From contig JAUHXR010000005.1 in the NCBI GenBank assembly GCA_030426845.1, positions 1 through 64,000 on the forward strand: a DNA stretch of 64,000 nt, in the 5' to 3' direction. The stretch comes from Polyangia bacterium (GTDB lineage Bacteria > Myxococcota_A > Polyangia > Polyangiales > Sandaracinaceae). Shown piece after piece: positions 51,089 to 64,000 of this stretch. The notes under the pieces were generated by a model. That model was not told the origin of the DNA, made no database searches, and saw only the letters and a list, made by a program, of their open reading frames with translations. Each line of letters starts with the position of its first letter. Position 1 is the stretch's first letter. Position numbers and translations under genes: made by a program.

Positions 51089-52775
51089 TGACGAGGATCG
51101 CGACCGCCACGCCGAGGCAGCCGAGGATCGGCAGGGCGAGCCACGAGGCGCGCTTGGCGGCGCGGGCGAGGAGCGCGCGGGCGGCGTCGGCGCCGCGGCC
51201 GAGCGTGATCACCGCGTCGTCCGGCCAGGGGACCGACGACGTGCGGAGCGAGGCGCTCGCGAGGCCCGCGAAGCGCGACAGGACGACGACGTGGACGCCC
51301 TCCCAGTCGCTCGCCACGCCCTCGAGGACGCGCACCGGCCGCTCGGGGAGACGCAAGCGAAACTGCCCCCCGTCCGCCTCGAGCCACGCCTCACCCTCGA
51401 CGACGAGGCGCCCCGCGGCCGCGTGATCGAAGAGGCGCGCGAGCGCCGACCGCCGGCCGTAGAACACCCGCGCGCCGTCGCCGAGCCGCAGGGTCCCCCC
51501 GAGCGCGCGCAGGCCCCCGCCGCCCGCAGGGCCCTCGGGGCGCGGCGCGAGCAGGTCCGGCACGTCGAGCGCGCGCGCGGTGCCGAGCTCGGAGCCGACC
51601 GAGAACACGAGCCACAGCAGCACCAGGAGCCCCGCCGCGAGCAGCGCCGTCCCGACCCGACCGAGGCGCACGAAGACCCGCCGCGCGAGCGTGTCGTCGA
51701 GGCGCACCCCGTCCGCGTCGACCACGGTGGCCACCCATTCGGCGCCGTCGGTGGCCGCGACCACGAACGTCCCGGCCGGCTCGGCGCGCTCGACGACCAT
51801 CACCCCGACGACCTCGCCCTCGAGCGGGAGCTCGACCTCTCCGGCGCCCCCGCCGTCGTCGGCCTCGATGCGCAGGCCGTGCGGGCGTGCGCTCACCTGC
51901 ACGGTGGTGCCGGGCAGGCGCTGCGGGACCAGCTGCACATCGGTCCGCAAGCCGCGCTGCGGGGCGTCGATGTCGCTGGCCCACGGCGCGAGCGGGAGCG
52001 GCGTGGCCGCGGCGACCAGGACCGCGGCGCCGACACCCGCAAGCCCGGGGGCGAGCAGCCGGAAGATGCCCCGCAGCCCGGCGGGCACGTCCGGCGGGGC
52101 GGCCGTGTCCTCCGCGCGCTGATCGAGCGTCTGTGCCTCGGCGATCGCGTCGGCGAGGAGCGCGATGGCGAGCGGGGCGCCGAGCGCGATCGCGAAGGGC
52201 GCGACGATCACCGTCGCGGCGGGGCTCGCGTGGGCCACCGCGGCGGCGGGCAGCAGCCCGAGCGCGAGCGCGCCGCCCACCTGGGCCCCGAGCCGCGCGC
52301 TGGCCCGCGCGCCGAGCCGCGCCGCGACCTGGAACGAGAGGGAGAAGGCCTCGAAGAGCTTCGCGCCGTCCGCCGCGAGGAGCGGAGCGAAGAGGAGCGG
52401 GGACGCGGCCGCGCCGAGGCCCACGTAGACCGCGACCCCGAGCAGGATCGAGGGGACGTCGCCCAGCGCGCCGCCGACCAGGTGCTCGAGCGCGCCGACC
52501 GCGAGGAGCGCGCCGACCCCGAAGCCCGCGAGGAGGAGCGTGGCGAGCGCGCCGCCCCAGCTCCGCCCGTGGCGCTCGGGCGCGGGATGGCCCGCCCGCG
52601 CGCGCGCCGCCTGGAGGAGCTGACGCATGAGCGACGTCAGCGCGCCGCTCACCAGCGGGAGGCCGATCACCACCAAGCTCAGCAGCACCCCGACCGGGAG
52701 CAGGACGATCCCCGCGCCGACCGTGAGGCCCGGGTGCGCGCGGAGCAGGCCCGCGGCCCGGGGGAGCCGGCTCAC
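51078..52775 (-). CDS. Polytopic membrane protein of unknown function, last gene of the RND operon
   Basis: 565 aa from GTG 52775, which overlaps the RND permease stop by four bases. The N-terminal half (about 1-265) has roughly five to seven hydrophobic helices, including LTVGAGIVLLPVGVLLSLVVIGLPLVSGALTSLM and blocks rich in Ala, Leu and Gly. A large soluble stretch follows, divided by one more hydrophobic segment (about 375-395, GTALLAAGLLVLLWLVFSVGSEL), and the protein ends in a helix (LALPILGCLGVAVAILV). The soluble parts are beta-rich and lack recognisable motifs. It is not an outer-membrane channel. The tight coupling implies a role with the pump, perhaps stabilising or regulating it. 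Confidence 0.72.
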   Translation of the reverse strand: MSRLPRAAGLLRAHPGLTVGAGIVLLPVGVLLSLVVIGLPLVSGALTSLMRQLLQAARARAGHPAPERHGRSWGGALATLLLAGFGVGALLAVGALEHLVGGALGDVPSILLGVAVYVGLGAAASPLLFAPLLAADGAKLFEAFSLSFQVAARLGARASARLGAQVGGALALGLLPAAAVAHASPAATVIVAPFAIALGAPLAIALLADAIAEAQTLDQRAEDTAAPPDVPAGLRGIFRLLAPGLAGVGAAVLVAAATPLPLAPWASDIDAPQRGLRTDVQLVPQRLPGTTVQVSARPHGLRIEADDGGGAGEVELPLEGEVVGVMVVERAEPAGTFVVAATDGAEWVATVVDADGVRLDDTLARRVFVRLGRVGTALLAAGLLVLLWLVFSVGSELGTARALDVPDLLAPRPEGPAGGGGLRALGGTLRLGDGARVFYGRRSALARLFDHAAAGRLVVEGEAWLEADGGQFRLRLPERPVRVLEGVASDWEGVHVVVLSRFAGLASASLRTSSVPWPDDAVITLGRGADAARALLARAAKRASWLALPILGCLGVAVAILVTRL

Positions 52776-55700
52776 GCGGCCTCCCGCGCCGCGGCCGTCG
52801 CGACCTCGGCTGCTCGCGCCTCGCGCCGCTGCGCGCGCCGGTCCCGCCAGCTCGCTACGATCACGTAGAGCACCGGGATCACGAACAGCGTCAGCCCCGT
52901 CCCGACGACCATCCCGCCGACCACCGCCCGCGCCATCGGCGCCCAGGTCTCCGCGCCGTCGCCCACCCCGACCGAGAGCGGCAGCATGCCGAGGATCGTG
53001 GTGAGCGCGGTCATCAGGATCGGCCGCATCCGCGTCCGTCCGGCCTCGAGCGCGGCCTCGGTCAGGCCCGCGCCCTCGCGCCGGCGCCGCTTGATCTGGT
53101 CGATCAGCACGATGCCGTTGTTCACGACTACGCCCCCGAGGAGGATGACGCCGACGAGCGCGGTCACCTGCACCGACGTGCCGGTGATCGCGAGCGCGAG
53201 GACGACGCCGATGATCGCGAGCGGCACGGTGAACATGATGATGAACGGCTCGATCAGCGACTCGAACTGCGAGGCCATCACCATGTACACGAGCGCGAGC
53301 GCGGCGAGCAGCGCCATCGCGAGCTTGAAGAACGCGTCGCGCAGGTCCTCCGCGCTCCCGCCGATCTCGTGGACCATCCCCTCCGGGACGCCGACCTCGT
53401 CGATCCGCGCCTCCACCTCGCGCACCACCGTGCCGAGGTCCGAGCCCGGCATCCGCGACAGGCTGATCGTCGCGAGGCGCCGCTGGTTCTCGCGCTCGAT
53501 GTCGACCGGCCCGAGCTGATCGCCGACCCGCGCGATCGAGCCGAGCGGCACCGTCCCTCCCGCGGGCAGCGGGATGGGCAGGTAGCGCAGATCCTCGAGG
53601 CGACGGCGGGCCTCGCGTGGGGCGCGCACCCGAACCGCGAACTCGTCGCCACCCTCGCGGAACGTCGTCGCGGGGATCCCCTGGTAGTAGGCCGCCACCG
53701 TGGAGGCGACGACGGTCGGCGTGATGCCGAGCAGGCGCATCCGCTCGCGGTCGTAGTCGAGCGACAGCTCGGGGCTGCCGTGGAGCATCGAGAAGCGCGC
53801 GTCGCGCACGCCCTCGACCTGGTCGAGCTCGCCGCGCAGCCGCTCGCCGAACACCCGCAGCTCGTCGAGGTCCTCGCCGAAGAGCTTCACCTCGATGTCG
53901 CCGCCGCCCCCCATCGAGAAGCCCTGCAGCTCGATCTCGAGGCCCGGGATGTCGCGGAAGCGCTCGTCGAGGACCGCCTCGATCTCCTGCTGGGTCCGGT
54001 CGCGCTCGGCGGGGGTCGTCAGGCGCGCGCGGAGCGTGCCCTTGTTGGCGGTGCCGCCGAAGATCGCGGCGAAGCCCTCCGCGGTGCCGTAGTCGGCGGT
54101 GATCACCCGCGCCTCCGGCACCTCCTCCCGGATCGTCGCCTCGACCTCGCCGATCAGCGCGCGCATCTCGTCGAGCGAGGTCCCCGGCGCGGCCGTCACC
54201 TCGACGCGGATCTCCGAGACGTCGGACTTCGGCAAGAAGTCTTGCCCGAGAAACGGCGCCGCGGCGAGGCTCGCGACGAACGCGAGGCCCGTCAGGCCGA
54301 GGACCCAGCGGCGGTGACGCAGGGCCCAGCCGAGGCGGCGCTCGTAGCCCGGCCCGAGCCGATCGAGGAACGCGGTCGCGCGGGCCAGCCAGCGCTCGAG
54401 CGCGTTCCGCTTGCCGCTCCCGAGCATCCGCGAGGCCATGAGCGGCACCAGGCTGAGCGCGACGAAGAGCGAGCTGAGCAGCGTGACGGTGATCGTCAGG
54501 ACCATGTCGCGGAAGAGCTCCCCCGCGATCCCCTCGACGAGCATGATCGGGAGGAACACCACCACCGTGGTCAGCGTCGAGGCGACCAGCGGCATCCCCA
54601 TCTCGCGCGCCCCGAGGAGCGCGGCCTCGGGCGGCGTAGCCCCGCGCTCGAGGTGCTGGAACGACGCCTCGAGCACGACGATCCCGTTGTCGACCAGCAT
54701 CCCGATCGCGAGGGCCAGCCCGGCCATCGAGATCAGGTTCAGGGTCACGTCGAGCATGTCCATCACGACGAAGGCGACGACGATGGAGGCCGGGATCGCC
54801 ACGACGGTGATCAGGCTCGTCCGCCAGCTCCGGAGGAACATCAGGAGCACGAGGCCGGTGAGGAGGAACGCCTGGAGCGCGGTCTGGCCGAGGTTGCCGA
54901 TCGAGCGGAGGATCGGCTGCGACTCGTCGAAGAGCGGCACCAGGGTGACGCCGTCGGGGAGGCGCTCACCGATCGACGGCAGCGCCGCCTGGACCGCGCG
55001 CGCGACCTGCACGGTGTTCGCGTCCGACTGCTTGCGCACCGCGATCATCACCGCCGGCTCGCCGTCCGCGGTGACCACGTGGGTCTCCTCCTCGAAGGTG
55101 TCGACCACCTCGGCGACCTCGCGCAGCCGCACCGGACGCCCGCCGCGCTGGCCGACGATCACGTCGCGGATCTGCTCGACGCTGGTGAAGAGGCTCGTCG
55201 GCTGGATCGCGAGGCGCTGGGTCCCGTCGTCGAGCGCCCCGCTCGGCACGACCAGGTTCGCCCCGCGCAGCGCGTCCGCCACGTGGGTCGGCGTGACGCC
55301 GTTCGCCTCGAGCCACGCCGGCCGCAGCCGCACCTGGACCTCGCGGTCGAGCCCGCCCATCACCTCGGCCGCCGCCACCCCCTCGACCCGCCCGAGGTAG
55401 GGCTGCACCTGCTCGGTCGCGATGCGGCGGAGCTGGTGGCCGTCGAGCGGCCCGTCGAGCGCCATGAACATCACCGGCGCGAGGCTCGGATCGAACGCGA
55501 AGGTGAGCGGGCGCGAGGCCTCGTCGGGGAGGAAGTCGTCGGCGAAGAGCTCGAGGTTCTTGCGCACCTCGACCTCGGCCCAGTTCATGTCCGTGCCCCA
55601 GGTGAAGCTGATGAGCACGATCGAGGTGCCCTGGCGCGACGTGGAGCGAACGGTCTCGACGTTCTCGACGCTGGAGACCGCGCGCTCGATCGGCTCGCTC

Positions 55701-56020
55701 AGGAGCGTCTCGGTGTCCTCCGGGCTCGCGCCGACGTAGGTCGTGATCACCGCGATGACCGGCAGGTCCACCTCGGGCAGCCGGTTGAGCGGCAGGCCGT
55801 AGAGCGAGAACAGCCCGAAGCCGATGAGGCAGAGGTAGACCATCGACGTGGTCACCCCGCGGCGGATCGACAGCTCGCCGAGCGACGGAAGCCCGCTCCT
55901 CGCCTCGCTCAGGAGGCGCCCGAGGCCACGGCGCCGCCCGGTGTCCTCCTCGGAGGGCGCGTCGACGACCGGCGCATGCTCCCCGTCGTCCGAGCCCCCG
56001 GGCGCGCGCGGGTCGCTCAC
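52772..56020 (-). CDS. RND family efflux permease (HAE1-like)
   Basis: 1082 aa inner-membrane proton-driven pump with the two-fold RND repeat. After a cytoplasmic N-terminus (about 45 residues, acidic and basic), the core begins SIRRGVTTSMVYLCLIGFGLFSLYGL. It has typical periplasmic strands (VITTYVGASPEDTETLLSEPIERAVSSVENV) and the TM4 motif GMLVDNGIVVLE. This has a single Asp-Asn rather than the Asp-Asp of AcrB; the VPLM...GSGK junction follows. The C-half includes ALALAITGTSVQVTALVGVILLGGVVVNNGIVLID. It exports drugs or metabolites together with the adaptor, whose gene end overlaps its start by four bases. No outer-membrane factor is encoded here. Confidence 0.92.
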   Translation of the reverse strand: MSDPRAPGGSDDGEHAPVVDAPSEEDTGRRRGLGRLLSEARSGLPSLGELSIRRGVTTSMVYLCLIGFGLFSLYGLPLNRLPEVDLPVIAVITTYVGASPEDTETLLSEPIERAVSSVENVETVRSTSRQGTSIVLISFTWGTDMNWAEVEVRKNLELFADDFLPDEASRPLTFAFDPSLAPVMFMALDGPLDGHQLRRIATEQVQPYLGRVEGVAAAEVMGGLDREVQVRLRPAWLEANGVTPTHVADALRGANLVVPSGALDDGTQRLAIQPTSLFTSVEQIRDVIVGQRGGRPVRLREVAEVVDTFEEETHVVTADGEPAVMIAVRKQSDANTVQVARAVQAALPSIGERLPDGVTLVPLFDESQPILRSIGNLGQTALQAFLLTGLVLLMFLRSWRTSLITVVAIPASIVVAFVVMDMLDVTLNLISMAGLALAIGMLVDNGIVVLEASFQHLERGATPPEAALLGAREMGMPLVASTLTTVVVFLPIMLVEGIAGELFRDMVLTITVTLLSSLFVALSLVPLMASRMLGSGKRNALERWLARATAFLDRLGPGYERRLGWALRHRRWVLGLTGLAFVASLAAAPFLGQDFLPKSDVSEIRVEVTAAPGTSLDEMRALIGEVEATIREEVPEARVITADYGTAEGFAAIFGGTANKGTLRARLTTPAERDRTQQEIEAVLDERFRDIPGLEIELQGFSMGGGGDIEVKLFGEDLDELRVFGERLRGELDQVEGVRDARFSMLHGSPELSLDYDRERMRLLGITPTVVASTVAAYYQGIPATTFREGGDEFAVRVRAPREARRRLEDLRYLPIPLPAGGTVPLGSIARVGDQLGPVDIERENQRRLATISLSRMPGSDLGTVVREVEARIDEVGVPEGMVHEIGGSAEDLRDAFFKLAMALLAALALVYMVMASQFESLIEPFIIMFTVPLAIIGVVLALAITGTSVQVTALVGVILLGGVVVNNGIVLIDQIKRRRREGAGLTEAALEAGRTRMRPILMTALTTILGMLPLSVGVGDGAETWAPMARAVVGGMVVGTGLTLFVIPVLYVIVASWRDRRAQRREARAAEVATAAAREAA

Positions 56021-57129
56021 GAGGTCTCCGAGGCGGGATCGCCCTCGCGGGTCCGGATCGGCGCTCCATCTCGCAAGAGGTGCTGCCCCTGCACGACGAG
56101 CTCTTCGCCGCCCGAGAGCCCGTCCTCGATCGCGACGCCGGAGTCGTAGCGGCGCCCGAGCCGGACCTGGCGCCGGCGCGCGACCCCCGCCTCGCGGTCG
56201 AACACGAACACGCTGGCCTCGCGCTCGGTGTCGGTGCGCGAGCTGAGCACGAGCGCGCGCGAGGGCGCGATGACCGTCCCGGCGTGGGTCTCGAGGATGA
56301 TCGTCGCCTCGGCGACCATCCCCGGGCGCAGCCGCGGGTCGGGCGCGGGTACGAGCAGCTCCACCTGGGCGGTGCGGGTGAGCGGGTCGAGCACGGGGGA
56401 GATGCGGTCCACGGTCGCGTCGAGCGTCAGACCCTCGAGCGCGGGCGGCCGGAGCGTCGCGGCCATGCCCGGGCGCAGGCGCACGTAGTCCTGCTCGGTC
56501 ACGCGGAGGTGCACCCGCAGCCGCTCCGCCTGGACGACCGAGCAGATCGGGACGCTCGGCGCGACCATGTCGCCCTGCTGCACCGACAGCAGCGCCACCG
56601 TGCCGGAGACGGGCGCGGTCACCACCGTCAGATCGCGCTGCTGCCCGGCGCTCCGCCGCGCGGCCCGGCTCTGGGCGAGCTGGGCCTCGCTCGTTCGGAG
56701 CTGCGCCTCGAGGGTCTCGAGCTGGCTGCGCGGCGCGGCCCCGCGGGCGACGAGGCCCCGCAGGCGCTCGACGTCGACGCGGAGCTGATCGCGCGCGGCG
56801 GCGGCCACGTCCACCGCCGCCGAGGCCTGCGACACCCCCGCCGACTGGATGCCCGAGCGCAGGGTGGCCAGCCGGTCGCCCTCCTCGACCGAGTCGCCCT
56901 CCTGGACGTGCAGCACCTCGATGCGCTCCGCCGCCTGGGCGAAGACACGCACCTCGCGCTCACCGTGCACATCGCCGAGGAGCGTGATCTGATCGACCGC
57001 GTCGTCCACCACCACCGGCTCGGTCACCACCAGGCGGGGGGGCTCGGGCGCTGGCTCCTCCTCGCCCATCAGCCGCTCGCAGCCGAGCAGCGCGAGCAGT
57101 GACGCGAGGGCGATGGAGGGGGCGCGCAT
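56017..57129 (-). CDS. RND efflux periplasmic adaptor (membrane-fusion lipoprotein)
   Basis: 370 aa. The signal ends in a lipobox LLGC (about Cys16), so it is membrane-anchored. Domains in order: an N-terminal beta-barrel piece (VTEPVVVDDAVDQITLLGDVHGEREVRV); a lipoyl half (VQEGDSVEEGDRLATL); an alpha-helical hairpin (about 98-165) with few and short helices; the second lipoyl half (VTAPVSGTVALLSVQQGDMV); beta-barrel and membrane-proximal domains (RLRPGMAATLRPPALEGLTLD, LRPGMVAEATIILE, APSRALVL). It bridges the RND permease to an outer-membrane channel. Its end overlaps the permease start by four bases. It diverges from the potassium operon with a 240-nt gap. Confidence 0.92.
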   Translation of the reverse strand: MRAPSIALASLLALLGCERLMGEEEPAPEPPRLVVTEPVVVDDAVDQITLLGDVHGEREVRVFAQAAERIEVLHVQEGDSVEEGDRLATLRSGIQSAGVSQASAAVDVAAAARDQLRVDVERLRGLVARGAAPRSQLETLEAQLRTSEAQLAQSRAARRSAGQQRDLTVVTAPVSGTVALLSVQQGDMVAPSVPICSVVQAERLRVHLRVTEQDYVRLRPGMAATLRPPALEGLTLDATVDRISPVLDPLTRTAQVELLVPAPDPRLRPGMVAEATIILETHAGTVIAPSRALVLSSRTDTEREASVFVFDREAGVARRRQVRLGRRYDSGVAIEDGLSGGEELVVQGQHLLRDGAPIRTREGDPASETS

Positions 57130-57369: not shown

Positions 57370-58704
57370 ATGAAGCCCTCCTCCCGCCTGGCGCTCGCGG
57401 CCTTCGCCGCGGTGGCGCTGTTTCCCTCGCTCGCCTACGCGGCGGGCGGCGGCGGCGGCAGCGACTCCACCGTCGTGGTGGTCGCGCTGGTCGGCCTGGT
57501 GGCGGGGGCCTATCTGCTCGCGCGCTTCGTGGTCGGCCGGCTGCAGAAGGCCTTCCTCGTGATGGCCGGGGTCGAGTCGATCCTCCTCGGCCTGCTCCTC
57601 GGGCCGGAGATGCCCTACTACTCACTGCCCGCGTTCAGCGACCTGAGCGGGCTGCTGCCGATCGTGGCGCTCGCGGTGGGCTGGGTCGGGCTCGTGCGCG
57701 GCATGGAGCTGTCCTTCTCGCGCTACCGCGGGCACACGCCGACCGGCGCGACCCGGGTGGTGGTCGTCCAGGCGCTCGTGGCCGGCGGCCTCACCTGCGG
57801 CGCGGCCTACGTCGCGTTCACCGGCGGCTACCTCTTCCCCGTCGCGACCCACGCGGACGCGCAGATCGAGGCCTGGATGGCCGCCGGGACGATGGGGTGC
57901 GCGGCCGCGGCCGGCTCGTTCGAGCCGATCAAGCTCCTCGAGAAGCGCTACCGCCTCGAGGGCGACGTCGCCGGGCGCATCCGCCGGATGGCCGCGATGA
58001 GCGACCTGCTCGCGATCGTCGTGTTCGGCCTCCTCTTCGCGATCTTCCACACCACCGAGGAGGAGGCGCTCTACGACCTGCGCCCGGTCGAGTGGGCGGT
58101 GGTCAGCGTCGGGGTCGGCGTGATGCTCGGCATCCTGTTCCGCCCGTTCCTCGGCGACGACGACTCCGAGAACGGCCGCTTCCTCGCGATGGTCGGCATC
58201 ATCGTCCTCGCCTCGGGCGCGGCCTACTTCCTCGACCTGTCGCCGCTGCTGGTGAACCTCTGCCTCGGCGTGGTGCTCGTGAACACCGCCAAGGCGGGCC
58301 CGCAGATCCGCGACACCCTCGACAACACACGCCGCCCGATGGCGCTGGTGCTGCTCGTGTTCGCGGGCGCGCTCGTGCGCCCGGTCGATCCGCTCGACGC
58401 GACGATCGTCTGCATCGCCTATCTCGCGCTCCGCCTCACCGGCAAGGCGGTGGGCACCTCGCTCGCGAGCTGGCGCACGCCGCTCCGCGGCGACTACTTC
58501 CGCGGGCTCCTCGCGCACGGCGAGGTCTCGGTCGCGATGGCGGTCTCGCTCCGGCTGGTCTACGAGGGCCCGGCCGTGGACCTGGCCTATCTCGCGATCC
58601 TCGTGTCGGTCGTCGTGAACGACCTCATCGCGCCCCGCGTGCTGCGCGGCCTCCTCGTCGACACCGGCGACCTGCGCGGCGAACGGAAGGAACAGGCGGC
58701 CTGA
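57370..58704 (+). CDS. Cation/proton antiporter-like membrane protein (first gene of K+ operon)
   Basis: 444 aa, ATG at 57370. The signal-like N-terminus ends in a Gly-rich patch (AAGGGGGSD), and about 11-12 hydrophobic helices follow. Features resembling CPA2-type antiporters are the pair of conserved segments MAAMSDLLAIVVFGLLF, which carries an Asp in a helix, and GEVSVAMAVSLRLV near the end. It is more divergent than the second antiporter at 61656 and lacks an RCK domain. It probably exchanges K+ or Na+ for H+. Its stop overlaps trkA by one base, so it belongs to the Trk operon, perhaps as the export counterpart. Confidence 0.8.
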   Translation: MKPSSRLALAAFAAVALFPSLAYAAGGGGGSDSTVVVVALVGLVAGAYLLARFVVGRLQKAFLVMAGVESILLGLLLGPEMPYYSLPAFSDLSGLLPIVALAVGWVGLVRGMELSFSRYRGHTPTGATRVVVVQALVAGGLTCGAAYVAFTGGYLFPVATHADAQIEAWMAAGTMGCAAAAGSFEPIKLLEKRYRLEGDVAGRIRRMAAMSDLLAIVVFGLLFAIFHTTEEEALYDLRPVEWAVVSVGVGVMLGILFRPFLGDDDSENGRFLAMVGIIVLASGAAYFLDLSPLLVNLCLGVVLVNTAKAGPQIRDTLDNTRRPMALVLLVFAGALVRPVDPLDATIVCIAYLALRLTGKAVGTSLASWRTPLRGDYFRGLLAHGEVSVAMAVSLRLVYEGPAVDLAYLAILVSVVVNDLIAPRVLRGLLVDTGDLRGERKEQAA

Positions 58705-60050
58705 TGTACATCGTGGTGATCGGGATGGGGGAGGTGGGCCGCCACCTCGTGCGGATGCTCGAGCACGATGGGCACGACCTCGTCGTCGTCGACTCGAGCC
58801 ACGACGCGATCCGCCTGGTGGAGGACCACCACGACGTCATGAGCATCACGGGCTACGGGGCGAGCCACGACATCCTCGAGGCGGCCCAGGTCGAGCGCGC
58901 CGATCTCGTCGTCGCGGTGACGGACCACGACGAGGTGAACCTCATCGCCGCGCTCGCGGCCAAGCAGCTCGGCGCACGCCGCGTGATCGCGCGCGCGCAG
59001 GGCAACGCCTGGACCTCGCAGCAGGAGGGCGTGCGCTACGGCCTGCTCGGGGTCGACGTCGTGATCAACCCGCGCGTGCTCGTCGCGCAGGAGCTCGCGC
59101 GCATCGCGCGCAGCCACGGCGCGGTCGACGTCATCGACCTGGCGCAGGACCGCATCGAGCTGGTGCAGGTCAACCTCACCGAGGAGACGCGGCACGTGGG
59201 CAAGCCGCTGATGAAGCTCAACATGCCCAAGGACACCCTCGTCGCCGCGCTCGTGCGCGAGGAGAAGCTCGTCATCCCGGGCGGCGCCGACGTGCTGATG
59301 CCGGGCGACCGCATCTACCTCATCGGCAAGGCCGAGGCGCTGCACAAGGCCGAGGAGCTGTTCACGAGCCGCCGCGAGGCGCGCCGGATCTGCATCGTCG
59401 GCGGCGGGGTGGTGGGGCGCGCGCTCTCGACGAGCCTCGTCGCGGACGGCGCCGACGTCCTCGTGATCGAGCAGAACCGCGAGGTCGCCGAGAAGCTCAG
59501 CATCGACGTGCCCGAGGCGACGATCGTCCATGGCGACGGCACCGATCGCCAGCTCCTCGCGGAGGAGGAGGTCGGCACCTACGACCTGCTCTGCGCGGTC
59601 ACGTCGGAGGACGAGGTCAACCTGATGGCCGCGCTCCTCGCCCAGCGCGTCGGCGTCGGGCGCACCGCCGCGCTCGTCCAGCGGGGCGACCACATGCCGA
59701 TCTATCAGCAGCTCGGGGTGGACATCGTCTTGACGCCGCGCGCCGTCGCCTCCGACCAGATCCTCCGCTACTGCAGGGGCGGCGGGGTGCAGAGCCTCAC
59801 GTCGCTCGAGGGCGGCCAGGCGGAGGTCGCGGAGCTGCGCGTGCCCCGGGGCGCGCGCGTGATCGGCGTGCCGCTGCGCCGGATGGGCCTGCCGCGCGGC
59901 GCGCTCCTCGGCGGCATCGTGCACCAGGACCAGGTCTCGATCCCGCGCGGCGACGACGTCGTCGAGGCGGGCGACACCGTGATCCTCCTCCTGACCGAGA
60001 CCGCCCGGCCGATCGTCGAGCGCATGTTCCGCTCGGGGAAGCGCGGGTAG
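58704..60050 (+). CDS. trkA: Trk K+ transport system NAD-binding subunit TrkA
   Basis: 448 aa cytoplasmic regulatory subunit of the Trk potassium channel/transporter. It has two RCK repeats. Each has a Rossmann NAD(H) fold: GMGEVGRHLV...LVVVDSS (about 7-35) and GGGVVGRALSTSLVADGADVLVIEQN (about 233-258), each followed by an RCK-C-like lobe (LAARRVEEL-type; VNLTEETRHVGKPLMKLNMPKDTL and VAELRVPRGARVIGVPLRRM). The two-repeat layout and length match TrkA. ATG 58704 shares one base with the antiporter stop. It gates TrkH in response to NAD(H) or ATP. The next gene, trkH, begins 1 nt after its stop. Confidence 0.93.
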   Translation: MYIVVIGMGEVGRHLVRMLEHDGHDLVVVDSSHDAIRLVEDHHDVMSITGYGASHDILEAAQVERADLVVAVTDHDEVNLIAALAAKQLGARRVIARAQGNAWTSQQEGVRYGLLGVDVVINPRVLVAQELARIARSHGAVDVIDLAQDRIELVQVNLTEETRHVGKPLMKLNMPKDTLVAALVREEKLVIPGGADVLMPGDRIYLIGKAEALHKAEELFTSRREARRICIVGGGVVGRALSTSLVADGADVLVIEQNREVAEKLSIDVPEATIVHGDGTDRQLLAEEEVGTYDLLCAVTSEDEVNLMAALLAQRVGVGRTAALVQRGDHMPIYQQLGVDIVLTPRAVASDQILRYCRGGGVQSLTSLEGGQAEVAELRVPRGARVIGVPLRRMGLPRGALLGGIVHQDQVSIPRGDDVVEAGDTVILLLTETARPIVERMFRSGKRG

Positions 60051-60051
60051 C

Positions 60052-61659
60052 TTGGCGCGGAGCCGACGCATCGTCCGGGCGCGGGGCCGCTGGCGGGACT
60101 TCCGCGGGACGCTGAGGCCGCTGGGCGCGGTCCTCATCGGGCTCGCGATCGCGCAGGCGGTCTGCGCGGCCGCCGGCTACGCGTGGGAGTTCTGGCTCGT
60201 CTCCGAGGCAGAACAGCAGCTCTCGGACGCCTTCGTGCTGCTCATCATCGCGGGCCTCACCGCCGGCGCGGGCGTCGCCTCCTACCGCTACGGCCGCCGG
60301 TTCTCCAAGGAGACGGTGACGCGGCGCGAGGCGCTCCTCGCGGTGACCCTGATCTGGCTCGCCGCCGGCGCCTTCGCGGGCCTGCCGTTCTACTTCTGCG
60401 GCGTCGAGCTGTTCGACCTCGCGCCCACCGATCACGTCAACCGGCTCGTCGACGCGTTCTTCGAGTCGGTGAGCGGCATGACGACCACCGGCGCGACGGT
60501 GATCGACGACATCGACGGCGACGTGGTCAAGGGCATGGCCGGCCGCCACGGCGGGCTGTCGCACCCGATCCTCCTCTGGCGCTCGCTGATCCAGTGGCTC
60601 GGCGGGATGGGCATCGTCGTGCTCTTCGTCGCGGTCTTCCCGTCGCTCGGCGCGGGGGCCAAGCACATGTTCAAGGGCGAGGTCCCGGGCACGACCGCCG
60701 AGGGCCTCAAGCCGCGCATCGCCGAGACGTCGTTCACGCTCTGGAAGCTCTACGCGGGGCTGACGCTCGTCGAGACGGTGCTCCTCGTGATGCTCGGCAT
60801 GACCCCGTTCGACGCGGTCTGTCACGCCTTCACCACCATGAGCACGGGCGGCTTCTCCACCTCGGACGCGTCGGTCGCGGGGTGGAACAGCTACTCGATC
60901 GAGATGGTGATCGGCACGTTCATGTTCCTCGGGAGCCTGAACTACGGCCTCTACTACGCGCTCCTGCGCGGGCGCTCGTGGCGCGCGGTGATGCGCAACA
61001 CCGAGCTGCGCGCGTTCCTCGTCCTCTGCGTGATCCTCGTCACCGCGCTGACCCTCGGGATCCTCCCGCAGCACGACCACGACATCGTCCAGGCGTTCCG
61101 CTACGCGTACTTCATGGTCGGCACGACCATGAGCTCGACCGGCTACGGCACCGACGACTACATGGCCTACTCCCAGCCGATGCTCATGGTGGTCATCCTC
61201 ATGATGTTCATCGGCGGCTGCAGCGGATCGACCGCGGGCGGCATCAAGGTCGAGCGTATCGTGCTGATGGCCAAGACCTCGTGGGCCGAGTTCCGCGAGT
61301 CCTTCCGCCCCGCGGTCGTGCAGGTCGTCCGGATGGGCAAGAACGCGGTGCCCAACGAGATCCTCCGCGACGTGGCCGTGTTCGTCGGCGTCTACATGGC
61401 GACGCTCGGCTTCGGCGTGCTCTTCGTCGTCGCGGTCGAGAGCTGGCTCAACGGCTGGGACTGCTCGGTCGGCACCGCCTTCGGCGCGACGCTCTCGGCG
61501 CTCTCCAACATGGGCCCCGGCCCGTGGCACGACGGGCCCGACAACTTCGTCCGCTACCACGCCATCTCGAAGCTCTTCTTCGTCTTCGCGATGCTCCTCG
61601 GCCGCCTCGAGTTCTTCACCCTCTTCGCGCTCCTCGTGCCGGACTTCTGGAGACGATGA
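60052..61659 (+). CDS. trkH: Trk K+ uptake channel subunit TrkH
   Basis: 535 aa integral membrane K+-translocating subunit. The four pore-loop filter repeats are recognisable: SVSGMTTTGATV (about 139-150), TTMSTGGFSTSD (about 261-272), GTTMSSTGYGTDD (about 358-370) and ALSNMGPGP (about 482-490). The start is most likely the TTG at 60052, which gives the basic cytoplasmic N-terminus MARSRRIVRARGR; a rare start codon, and no other good in-frame start with a ribosome site lies upstream of the first helix. It works with TrkA, whose stop is 1 nt before. Its own stop overlaps the next antiporter gene by four bases. Confidence 0.92.
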   Translation: MARSRRIVRARGRWRDFRGTLRPLGAVLIGLAIAQAVCAAAGYAWEFWLVSEAEQQLSDAFVLLIIAGLTAGAGVASYRYGRRFSKETVTRREALLAVTLIWLAAGAFAGLPFYFCGVELFDLAPTDHVNRLVDAFFESVSGMTTTGATVIDDIDGDVVKGMAGRHGGLSHPILLWRSLIQWLGGMGIVVLFVAVFPSLGAGAKHMFKGEVPGTTAEGLKPRIAETSFTLWKLYAGLTLVETVLLVMLGMTPFDAVCHAFTTMSTGGFSTSDASVAGWNSYSIEMVIGTFMFLGSLNYGLYYALLRGRSWRAVMRNTELRAFLVLCVILVTALTLGILPQHDHDIVQAFRYAYFMVGTTMSSTGYGTDDYMAYSQPMLMVVILMMFIGGCSGSTAGGIKVERIVLMAKTSWAEFRESFRPAVVQVVRMGKNAVPNEILRDVAVFVGVYMATLGFGVLFVVAVESWLNGWDCSVGTAFGATLSALSNMGPGPWHDGPDNFVRYHAISKLFFVFAMLLGRLEFFTLFALLVPDFWRR

Positions 61660-64000
61660 GCGGCCACGGCGGCAGCAAGGGCGGAGGCATCCGCAAGATG
61701 GTCATCGTCCTGCTCCTCGTGGGCGGGGTGATGCTCCTGCACCGCTTCAGCGCGCGGCCGGACGAGCTCGACCCGAGCGCCATGCTCGCGCTCGGCTTCG
61801 TCATCCTCGCGAGCTACGCGTTCGGCCAGCTGGTCGAGCAGATCGCCCTGCCCCACATCACCGGCTACCTCGTCGCGGGGATGCTGCTCGGCCCGTCCTT
61901 CGCCTCGATCCTGACGGGGCAGGGCGTCGCGCTCCCGCCGCCGTTCGACGAGGGCGTCCTCAGCGAGAGCGTGCAGACGCAGCTCCAACCGCTGAACACC
62001 CTGGCGGTCGCGCTCATCGCGTTGACCGCCGGCGGCGAGCTGAAGATCGACTCGCTGCGAAAAGGCCTCGCGACGATCCTCGGCGTCCTCGGCGGCCAGC
62101 TGGTCGCGATCATCGGCCTGTGCATCGCGTTCGTGGTCGGCCTCAGCGGGGTGGTACCCGGCATCACCATCCCGGGCCTCGGCGACGTCGATCTCAACAG
62201 CGCGCTCTGGCTCGGCGCGATCCTCGGCAGCATCTCGATCGCGACGAGCCCCGCCGCGACCATCGCGGTCATCAACGACGTGCGGGCGCGCGGCCCGCTC
62301 ACCAGCTCCCTCCTCGCGACGGTCGTCCTCAAGGACGTGATCGTCGTCATCCTCTTCAGCGTCGTGAGCACCTTCGCGGTGCAGGCGCTCGGCCTCGCGG
62401 GCGGCTCCGAGGGCGGCATCGGCTGGTTCCTCCTGCAGCACATCGGCGGCGCGCTCGCGCTCGGCGCGGCGATCGGCTTCGGCGTCGCGATGTACCTCAA
62501 GTACATCAAGGCCGAGCCGCTCCTGTTCGTCGTCGGCGTCGTCTACACCTCCGCCTACGTCGCCCACGCGCTCGACGTCGAGGTCGTCGTGCTCTTCATC
62601 GCGGCCGGCTTCGTGGCCGCGAACTTCTCGACCGAGGGCGACCTCCTCCTCGAGAACGTCGAGAAGCTCTCGCTCCCCGTCTACGTGGTGTTCTTCACCC
62701 TCGCCGGCGCGCACCTGCCGCTCGGCTCGCTCTGGACCCTCGCGCCCTACGCGCTCGGCCTGGTCGCGCTGCGCACCTTCGCGATCTGGCTGGGCACCGC
62801 CGCCGGCGCCAAGCTCACGCGGGCCGAGCCCAAGATCGCGAAGTTCAGCTGGATGGGCTACGTGTCCCAGGCCGGCGTCGCGATCTCGCTCGCGGGGATC
62901 GTCGGCCAGCGGATGGGCGAGCCGGGGCAGAAGCTCTCCACGCTCATCATCGCCGGCATCGCGATCCACGAGCTGATCGGCCCCGTGCTGCTCAAGGTGG
63001 GCCTCAGCGCGGCCAAGGAGACGGCCGATCACGCGGACGACGGCGAGGTCGAGGCGAGCCCCGCGCCGAGCGCCGCGGACGACGACGGCCCGCTCGCCGA
63101 GTGGCCGGTGCCCGACGTGGGGGTCGACGCGTGGGGGGGACCTCTGCGGCTCGACTCGAGCGAGCTCAACGAGGTGGTCCACGACCTCCAGCTCGACCTC
63201 TCGCACATCGCGCGCGACGTGGCCGAGGAGCCGCTGCGGCGCTTCCGCGAGTCGGCGCTCGAGTACGTCCGCGAGCTGCGTCGCGAGTTCCTGCGGCACC
63301 ACCGGCGCATCACCGTCCAGGCGGGCGGCGAGCAGACCGAGCTCAACGCGGCCGAAGCGCTGCGCCTCGAGCAGGCCGAGCTGGCCGAGAAGTGGCGCGT
63401 CGCGGTGCTCTCCCGGGCGGCGCGCGTGCGCCAGGCCCCGGATTGGGAGCCGGGTCCGATCGTCGCCGCGGTCGACGCGATCACCGAGGGGCTCCCCGAG
63501 CAGGTGGCCGCGCCCTTCGAGCCGGAGAGCTTCGGCCCGGTCGACTCGGACTCCTCCTGGCGCGCGCTCGTGCGCTGGTGGCTGCGGACGCGGCGGGGGC
63601 TGCGGCGGCTCTTCGGCGACGAGATGTCGCCCCGCAACGTCGAGGTGCGGGCCCTCGCGCGCTATCACCTCTGGGGCCGGCTCCCCGAGCGCCTCGAGCC
63701 GGTCGCCACCCTCTACGCGGCGGCCGAGTCGCACCTCGTCGCGCGCACGCGGAGCGTCTTCGAGGGGCTCGTGGTGGCGTACGACGACCTCGCGGTGGGC
63801 GTCGAGGCGGCGGGCCGCGAGGGAGAGCCCGCGGTCGACGCCGACGAGCGCCTGCGCGAGATCCGGCAGAACGTCGACGAGGAGCTCGTCCTCGCCGTCC
63901 AGGAGGTCGACCGCATCCGCGAGGACCTCGCGCTGCGCACCAGCCTCGCGCTCGGCGCGTGCCTGCGCGACCTCAAGGCGGACATGCCGCGCATCGCGAC
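61656..64000 (+). CDS. Cation:proton antiporter (CPA2/KefB-like) with long C-terminal cytoplasmic domain, 3' truncated by window end
   Basis: The ATG at 61656 overlaps the trkH stop by four bases and the frame stays open to the window end: 781 codons so far. After a short Gly-rich N-terminus, about 12 transmembrane helices (to about residue 445) include VEQIALPHITGYLVAGMLLGPS, the helical core with IATSPAATIAVIND, and VLKDVIVVILFSVV with the Lys-Asp pair of CPA2 antiporters. The region after residue 450 is hydrophilic, with long charged helices (LNAAEALRLEQAELAEKWRV, VDADERLREIRQNVDEELVLAVQEVDRIREDLAL). No RCK/TrkA-N domain is visible in this tail, unlike KefB/KefC. It probably exchanges K+ or Na+ for H+ and is regulated through the tail. 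Confidence 0.88.
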   Translation, partial: MSGHGGSKGGGIRKMVIVLLLVGGVMLLHRFSARPDELDPSAMLALGFVILASYAFGQLVEQIALPHITGYLVAGMLLGPSFASILTGQGVALPPPFDEGVLSESVQTQLQPLNTLAVALIALTAGGELKIDSLRKGLATILGVLGGQLVAIIGLCIAFVVGLSGVVPGITIPGLGDVDLNSALWLGAILGSISIATSPAATIAVINDVRARGPLTSSLLATVVLKDVIVVILFSVVSTFAVQALGLAGGSEGGIGWFLLQHIGGALALGAAIGFGVAMYLKYIKAEPLLFVVGVVYTSAYVAHALDVEVVVLFIAAGFVAANFSTEGDLLLENVEKLSLPVYVVFFTLAGAHLPLGSLWTLAPYALGLVALRTFAIWLGTAAGAKLTRAEPKIAKFSWMGYVSQAGVAISLAGIVGQRMGEPGQKLSTLIIAGIAIHELIGPVLLKVGLSAAKETADHADDGEVEASPAPSAADDDGPLAEWPVPDVGVDAWGGPLRLDSSELNEVVHDLQLDLSHIARDVAEEPLRRFRESALEYVRELRREFLRHHRRITVQAGGEQTELNAAEALRLEQAELAEKWRVAVLSRAARVRQAPDWEPGPIVAAVDAITEGLPEQVAAPFEPESFGPVDSDSSWRALVRWWLRTRRGLRRLFGDEMSPRNVEVRALARYHLWGRLPERLEPVATLYAAAESHLVARTRSVFEGLVVAYDDLAVGVEAAGREGEPAVDADERLREIRQNVDEELVLAVQEVDRIREDLALRTSLALGACLRDLKADMPRIA

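Follow-up and report, generated by a model that had tools for sequence, protein, structure and literature searches.

A conserved gene cluster of Myxococcota combining two CPA-fold proteins with TrkA, TrkH and an MscS-type channel: a candidate operon for K+, pH and turgor homeostasis

The DNA studied here (the window) consists of bases 1-64000 of contig JAUHXR010000005.1 in assembly GCA_030426845.1, which derives from a Polyangia bacterium of the Sandaracinaceae; the contig itself ends at 74,977. A closely spaced set of genes crosses the end of the window (Table 1). Gene 1 and trkA overlap by 1 base, trkA and trkH are separated by a 1-nt gap, and trkH and gene 4 overlap by 4 bases (ATGA). The initial annotation had these four genes and their junctions correct to the base, and it had rightly called the last of them incomplete: in the downstream contig, gene 4 continues past 64000 and ends at 66158. 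There, gene 5 (mscS) follows with a further 4-base overlap (ATGA), its start lying within the gene-4 stop codon. The genes are presumably read as one transcript. No RNA element, including any riboswitch, was found above threshold upstream of gene 1. Next on the same strand, 26 nt past mscS, comes a cytochrome P450-like gene (67524-68918; L009:10524-11918). On the other side, an RND-type efflux pump and a membrane-fusion protein are encoded on the minus strand (52772-56020 and 56017-57129, with a 4-base overlap), divergent from the operon.

Table 1. Genes of the operon, in contig coordinates
Feature	Description	Position	Strand	Basis
Gene 1	Divergent CPA-superfamily protein, 444 aa, multi-span, N-terminal signal-like helix (predicted)	57370-58704	+	Profile comparison, AlphaFold2, Foldseek
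trkA	TrkA, 448 aa, two RCK halves	58704-60050	+	NCBIfam, Pfam
trkH	TrkH, 535 aa, TTG start	60052-61659	+	NCBIfam, Pfam
Gene 4	Antiporter with long tail, 1,500 aa	61656-66158 (window part 61656-64000)	+	PF00999, AlphaFold2/Foldseek
Gene 5	MscS-type channel, 447 aa	66155-67498 (beyond the window)	+	PF00924

NCBIfam and Pfam confirm the identities first proposed for TrkA and TrkH. TrkA contains two matched stretches each of PF02254 and PF02080 and matches NF007039 at 441 bits (cut-off 293); TrkH matches PF02386 at 168.5 bits (cut-off 27). The nucleotide motifs of TrkA (GxGxxG...D/E) are conserved and intact in both halves, and the P-loop filter glycines of TrkH (Gly147, Gly267, Gly364 and Gly488) are invariant in 28 homologues. 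Judging from these residues, the channel should work. TrkH is opened by TrkA with ATP and closed with ADP (PMC6987127). The operon is not the genome's only route of K+ uptake, since a separate Ktr-like pair, made up of a TrkH/KtrB-like protein (687 aa frame) and a short single-RCK protein, is encoded on contig C8 at ~37.9-40.7 kb (L153:3944-6676). In gene 5, the MscS beta domain (PF00924) is matched at 42.7 bits (cut-off 20.2). Residues 25-120 of this protein (P0006, L009:9155-10498) are low-complexity DAGPPDAG repeats that precede the channel domain.

The product of gene 4 matches PF00999 (Na_H_Exchanger) at 87.7 bits (cut-off 26.2). Its CPA transporter domain spans approximately residues 54-445 (61815-62990), and hydropathy reveals no membrane segments beyond about residue 450. 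The fifth transmembrane segment (TM5) carries the pair Lys226-Asp227, and the Asp is found in 54 of 58 homologues. Asp156 is the primary ion-binding residue of KefC (PMC11150392), and Asp227 is its probable equivalent by alignment. Given the conservation of this residue, transport has probably been retained. A domain scan of all 1,500 residues detected no RCK/TrkA_N domain. The initial annotation had described a KefB-like antiporter with a long charged tail and no RCK domain; the transporter domain and the missing RCK stand, but the tail is better described as a helical rod that ends in an AAA+ domain plus a winged helix.

This soluble part has about 1,050 residues. The rod occupies approximately residues 490-1140 (~650 residues), the AAA+ domain starts near residue 1184 (approx. 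65205), and the winged helix lies at the C-terminus. The profile match to AAA_16 (residues 1184-1244) is weak, at 26 bits against a cut-off of 32.6, and a weak profile match to the EutK C-terminal domain falls within the winged-helix part. The tail was modelled on an orthologue (L081), with its 1,067 C-terminal residues and an alignment with 26 relatives as input. The resulting AlphaFold2 model (pLDDT 84) opens with a low-confidence linker; long helices then take up ~650 residues, and an alpha/beta AAA+ domain and, at the C-terminus, a winged helix complete the chain. In a Foldseek search it matched Orc/Cdc6 and RuvB best and NLR-type STAND proteins (NLR resistosomes) less well; the model thus points to an AAA+ fold at the C-terminus of gene 4. 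Many spurious long open reading frames occur on both strands here, and the tail might be suspected of being another such artefact of high-GC DNA. The conservation of the protein and its fold refute this idea, to which we assign practically no credence: 27 orthologous C-termini align with a mean column identity of 50% and many invariant residues, the modelled fold is confident, and gene 4 is 1.4-1.6 thousand residues long in dozens of genomes. A plasmid tblastn search with gene 4 returned matches to the antiporter domain only and none to the tail.

The nucleotide-binding motifs of the AAA+ domain are in uneven condition. The Walker A motif encoded in the window (GPDGVGKS) is intact, and the Walker B position reads VVVLGV, with no acidic residue. 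Of 66 non-redundant tail sequences, 47 retain the Walker A Lys but only 17 the S/T after it, and 43 have Gly directly after the Walker B acid. The P-loop has been lost from several relatives. Because these relatives have no P-loop and the Walker B of the window's protein has no acid, nucleotide sensing cannot be general in the family. The eroded Walker motifs suggest that the domain is a regulatory sensor or a scaffold rather than a motor.

Gene 1 (P0001) matched no Pfam or NCBIfam model, and PF00999 was matched by only 2 of 31 relatives. Compared by hhalign with the gene-4 transporter domain, the gene-1 family profile gave a probability of 99.9% (E 1e-31, 383 columns), and the acidic TM5 positions of the two families were superposed in the alignment. 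Solved-structure searches with single-sequence queries yielded no matches. Foldseek comparison of an AlphaFold2 model (pLDDT 87) retrieved NHA2 (E 8e-9), SOS1, NhaP and NapA. Judged by profile and model, gene 1 is a CPA-fold protein and a full-length paralogue of the transmembrane domain of gene 4, and the earlier description of a divergent antiporter ahead of trkA holds as to fold despite the failure of the family models. The TM5 acid in the window is Asp212; the position is D/E in 59 of 72 readable homologues and S/Q/A/R in the other 13. The notion that gene 1 is catalytically dead was dropped for the window in light of this retention.

The initial annotation's proposal of a functional unit depended on whether the gene order occurs outside this genome, and the order was found phylum-wide in Myxococcota. 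In a sample of 284 genomes from the phylum, 90 had a gene-1 match, and 81 gene-1 loci were read. A gene-4 homologue lies downstream of gene 1 on the same strand in 77 of these; three loci run off the contig, and one (L186) is without it. The pair is therefore present in 77 of the 78 loci with enough downstream sequence. At L186, the sole exception among loci with room, a 701-residue frame encodes a gene-1-like CPA protein, and gene 4 is missing from the vicinity. Two loci (L093 and L098) have gene 1-trkA-trkH without detectable gene 4 in the ~10 kb that follow; the TrkH frame of L098 is shortened, possibly through an assembly error. L064 and L065 each carry, back to back with gene 1-trkA, another gene 1-gene 4 pair that is short and divergent; two versions can thus coexist in one genome. 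Two MAGs titled Oligoflexia and Rhodobacterales (L124, L126) fall within this phylum sample, and their titles are probably wrong. A gene-1 scan of ~85,000 species genomes, which detects fairly close relatives only, returned only Myxococcota or records with vague or doubtful titles, and gene 4 was present in 39 of the 41 loci with enough contig; this set shares assemblies with the 284 genomes, and the counts are not additive. Recurrence of the order across the phylum implies that the arrangement is not due to chance and lends good support to a functional unit.

The remaining parts of the locus are more variable. The full order gene 1-trkA-trkH-gene 4-mscS occurs in 27 loci. MscS is downstream in 43 loci and only upstream in 8; an MscS-like gene upstream, not downstream, accompanies short gene 1-gene 4 pairs in L077, L078, L182, L183, L185, L191, L194 and L198. 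In at least 19 loci, a short gene 4 lacks both the rod and the AAA+ domain, and the pair persists in genomes that lack trkAH, the tail and MscS. The trkA-trkH genes lie between gene 1 and gene 4 in 34 of the 77 pair loci and are not between them in 43. On a midpoint-rooted tree of the gene-4 transporter domain, the presence of trkAH changes 8 times, at least 6 of them by well-supported branches. The invariant core is accordingly the pair of CPA paralogues, not TrkA, and the earlier suggestion that TrkA regulates more than TrkH is weakened. Because trkAH lies between the same two genes wherever the locus was read through, repeated loss from an ancestral five-gene operon would, on this midpoint-rooted tree, be a simpler account than repeated insertion at a single point. 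Over 30 loci that carry gene 1, TrkA, TrkH and both gene-4 domains, the divergences of these parts and of MscS are correlated (Spearman 0.70-0.90), which mostly reflects shared descent.

We propose that the locus is an operon for K+, pH and turgor homeostasis, in which the products of genes 1 and 4 most likely form a single heteromeric cation(K+)/proton antiporter, with the rod-AAA+ tail as its gate. This is the reading we prefer, with a confidence that falls a little short of even. Two CPA-fold paralogues would assemble as a two-subunit exchanger, to which gene 4 would contribute the cytosolic machinery along with an ion-binding Asp that is conserved; gene 1 would be the partner whose ion site is conserved less well. 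K+ is proposed as the ion through association with the neighbouring genes. The rod, the degenerate AAA+ domain and the winged helix would together form a gate, in a role like that of the RCK/KTN domain of KefC, and gating would probably proceed by nucleotide sensing or scaffolding, not by burning ATP. TrkAH would act as a detachable module for gated K+ uptake, and the MscS-like channel would vent solute on hypo-osmotic shock. The unit would then be the gene 1-gene 4 pair, to which MscS and TrkAH attach. Of the K+/H+ set-point unit first envisaged, the functional unit is upheld by the phylum-wide order, and MscS fits as a third element related to K+ and turgor; the parts would be functionally coupled. 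The initial annotation had also spoken of two different antiporters. Two CPA-fold paralogues are indeed present, but the phrase may be wrong in substance, given that their constant pairing fits a single two-subunit antiporter as well.

The main competitor is a pair of independent homodimeric antiporters that differ in ion preference and are co-expressed with TrkAH for K+/H+ balance, the tail modulating gene 4 only. CPA proteins with structures, such as KefC, are homodimeric (PMC11150392), and both proteins here have full-length CPA folds. Moreover, gene 1 mostly keeps its acidic TM5 residue in the window's clade, and its retention in the window itself counts against a strictly heteromeric scheme, as gene 1 may then transport on its own. 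Nonetheless, the paralogues are almost never separated, even where trkAH, the tail and MscS are missing, and the loss of the TM5 acid from 13 of 72 gene-1 proteins is easier to reconcile with a supporting subunit than with an exchanger that works alone. We consider two homodimers somewhat unlikely and prefer the heteromer because the gene 1-gene 4 pairing survives the loss of every other part.

Two further alternatives give the tail a different task. Gene 4 could be a transceptor whose membrane domain senses K+/H+ and whose AAA+-winged-helix part binds DNA at the membrane and controls transcription, in the manner of ToxR/CadC-type regulators. Its closest Foldseek matches, Orc/Cdc6 and RuvB, are DNA-binding AAA+ proteins with C-terminal winged helices, and the weak EutK match falls in the corresponding part of gene 4. 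However, the winged helices of AAA+/STAND proteins are often purely structural, and the conserved transporter Asp speaks for retained transport; we judge this reading improbable. Gene 4 could also be a STAND-like anti-phage protein that collapses an ion gradient upon infection. Proteins that join a membrane effector at the N-terminus to an AAA+ domain at the C-terminus do occur in defence, and the resistosomes among the Foldseek matches are in keeping with such a role. Against this, no PADLOC model matched any of the four proteins compared (P0001, P0003, P0005 and P0006), the genes are inherited together with TrkAH and MscS over the phylum, and the P-loop is eroded. A defence function is thus highly implausible, and on the PADLOC result we rejected it.

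Each component of the locus resembles a known system and departs from it. KefC, a dimeric CPA2 exchanger, has a conserved Asp in a core helix and is gated by a nucleotide-binding region at its C-terminus (PMC11150392). Gene 4 likewise joins a CPA domain bearing such an Asp to a large C-terminal cytosolic region, as in KefC and KefB, but it differs from them in having no RCK domain, in its TM5 Lys-Asp pair, in its tail of rod, AAA+ domain and winged helix, and in its gene neighbours, which encode another CPA paralogue, TrkAH and MscS. TrkA and TrkH conform to canonical TrkAH in their two RCK halves, four filter motifs and adjacent genes, whereas their insertion between two CPA genes of an operon and their absence from many sister loci set them apart. 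In the model, an AAA+ fold followed by a C-terminal winged helix recalls Orc1/Cdc6, RuvB and STAND proteins; unlike these, the AAA+ domain of gene 4 is fused to an antiporter, has mostly lost the Walker A S/T and the Walker B Glu, and shows no link to replication genes. Gene 5 shares TM3 and the beta domain with MscS channels, but its N-terminus is large and variable, and it is encoded with antiporters, overlapping gene 4. A survey of transport in Myxococcus xanthus placed one 432-residue protein (Q1D5P4) in a novel, distant CPA2 subfamily, TC 2.A.37.6 (PMC3924187). It comes from the same phylum, is short and about the size of gene 1, and lies very far out within CPA2; it is possibly a relative of gene 1.

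A literature search that left most subscription papers outside its reach found no description of this gene order, of paired or heteromeric CPA proteins, or of an antiporter-AAA+ fusion. The locus might represent an undescribed class of heteromeric CPA antiporter. Its catalytic paralogue would be joined by a long helical rod to a sensor of (pseudo)AAA+-winged-helix type and paired with another CPA subunit; a detachable TrkAH channel and an MscS valve would be coupled to it, and one cytosolic switch that binds nucleotide or DNA would set K+ uptake, exchange and release. We regard this fuller scheme as unlikely. If the proposal is right, an antiporter can be gated without an RCK domain, and an AAA+ protein has been turned into a regulatory tail. 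Myxococcota would possess a natural operon that encodes K+ uptake, exchange and emergency release together, and a divergent CPA-like family that family libraries currently miss would gain a context. The coordination of K+, pH and turgor would then become testable as one unit.
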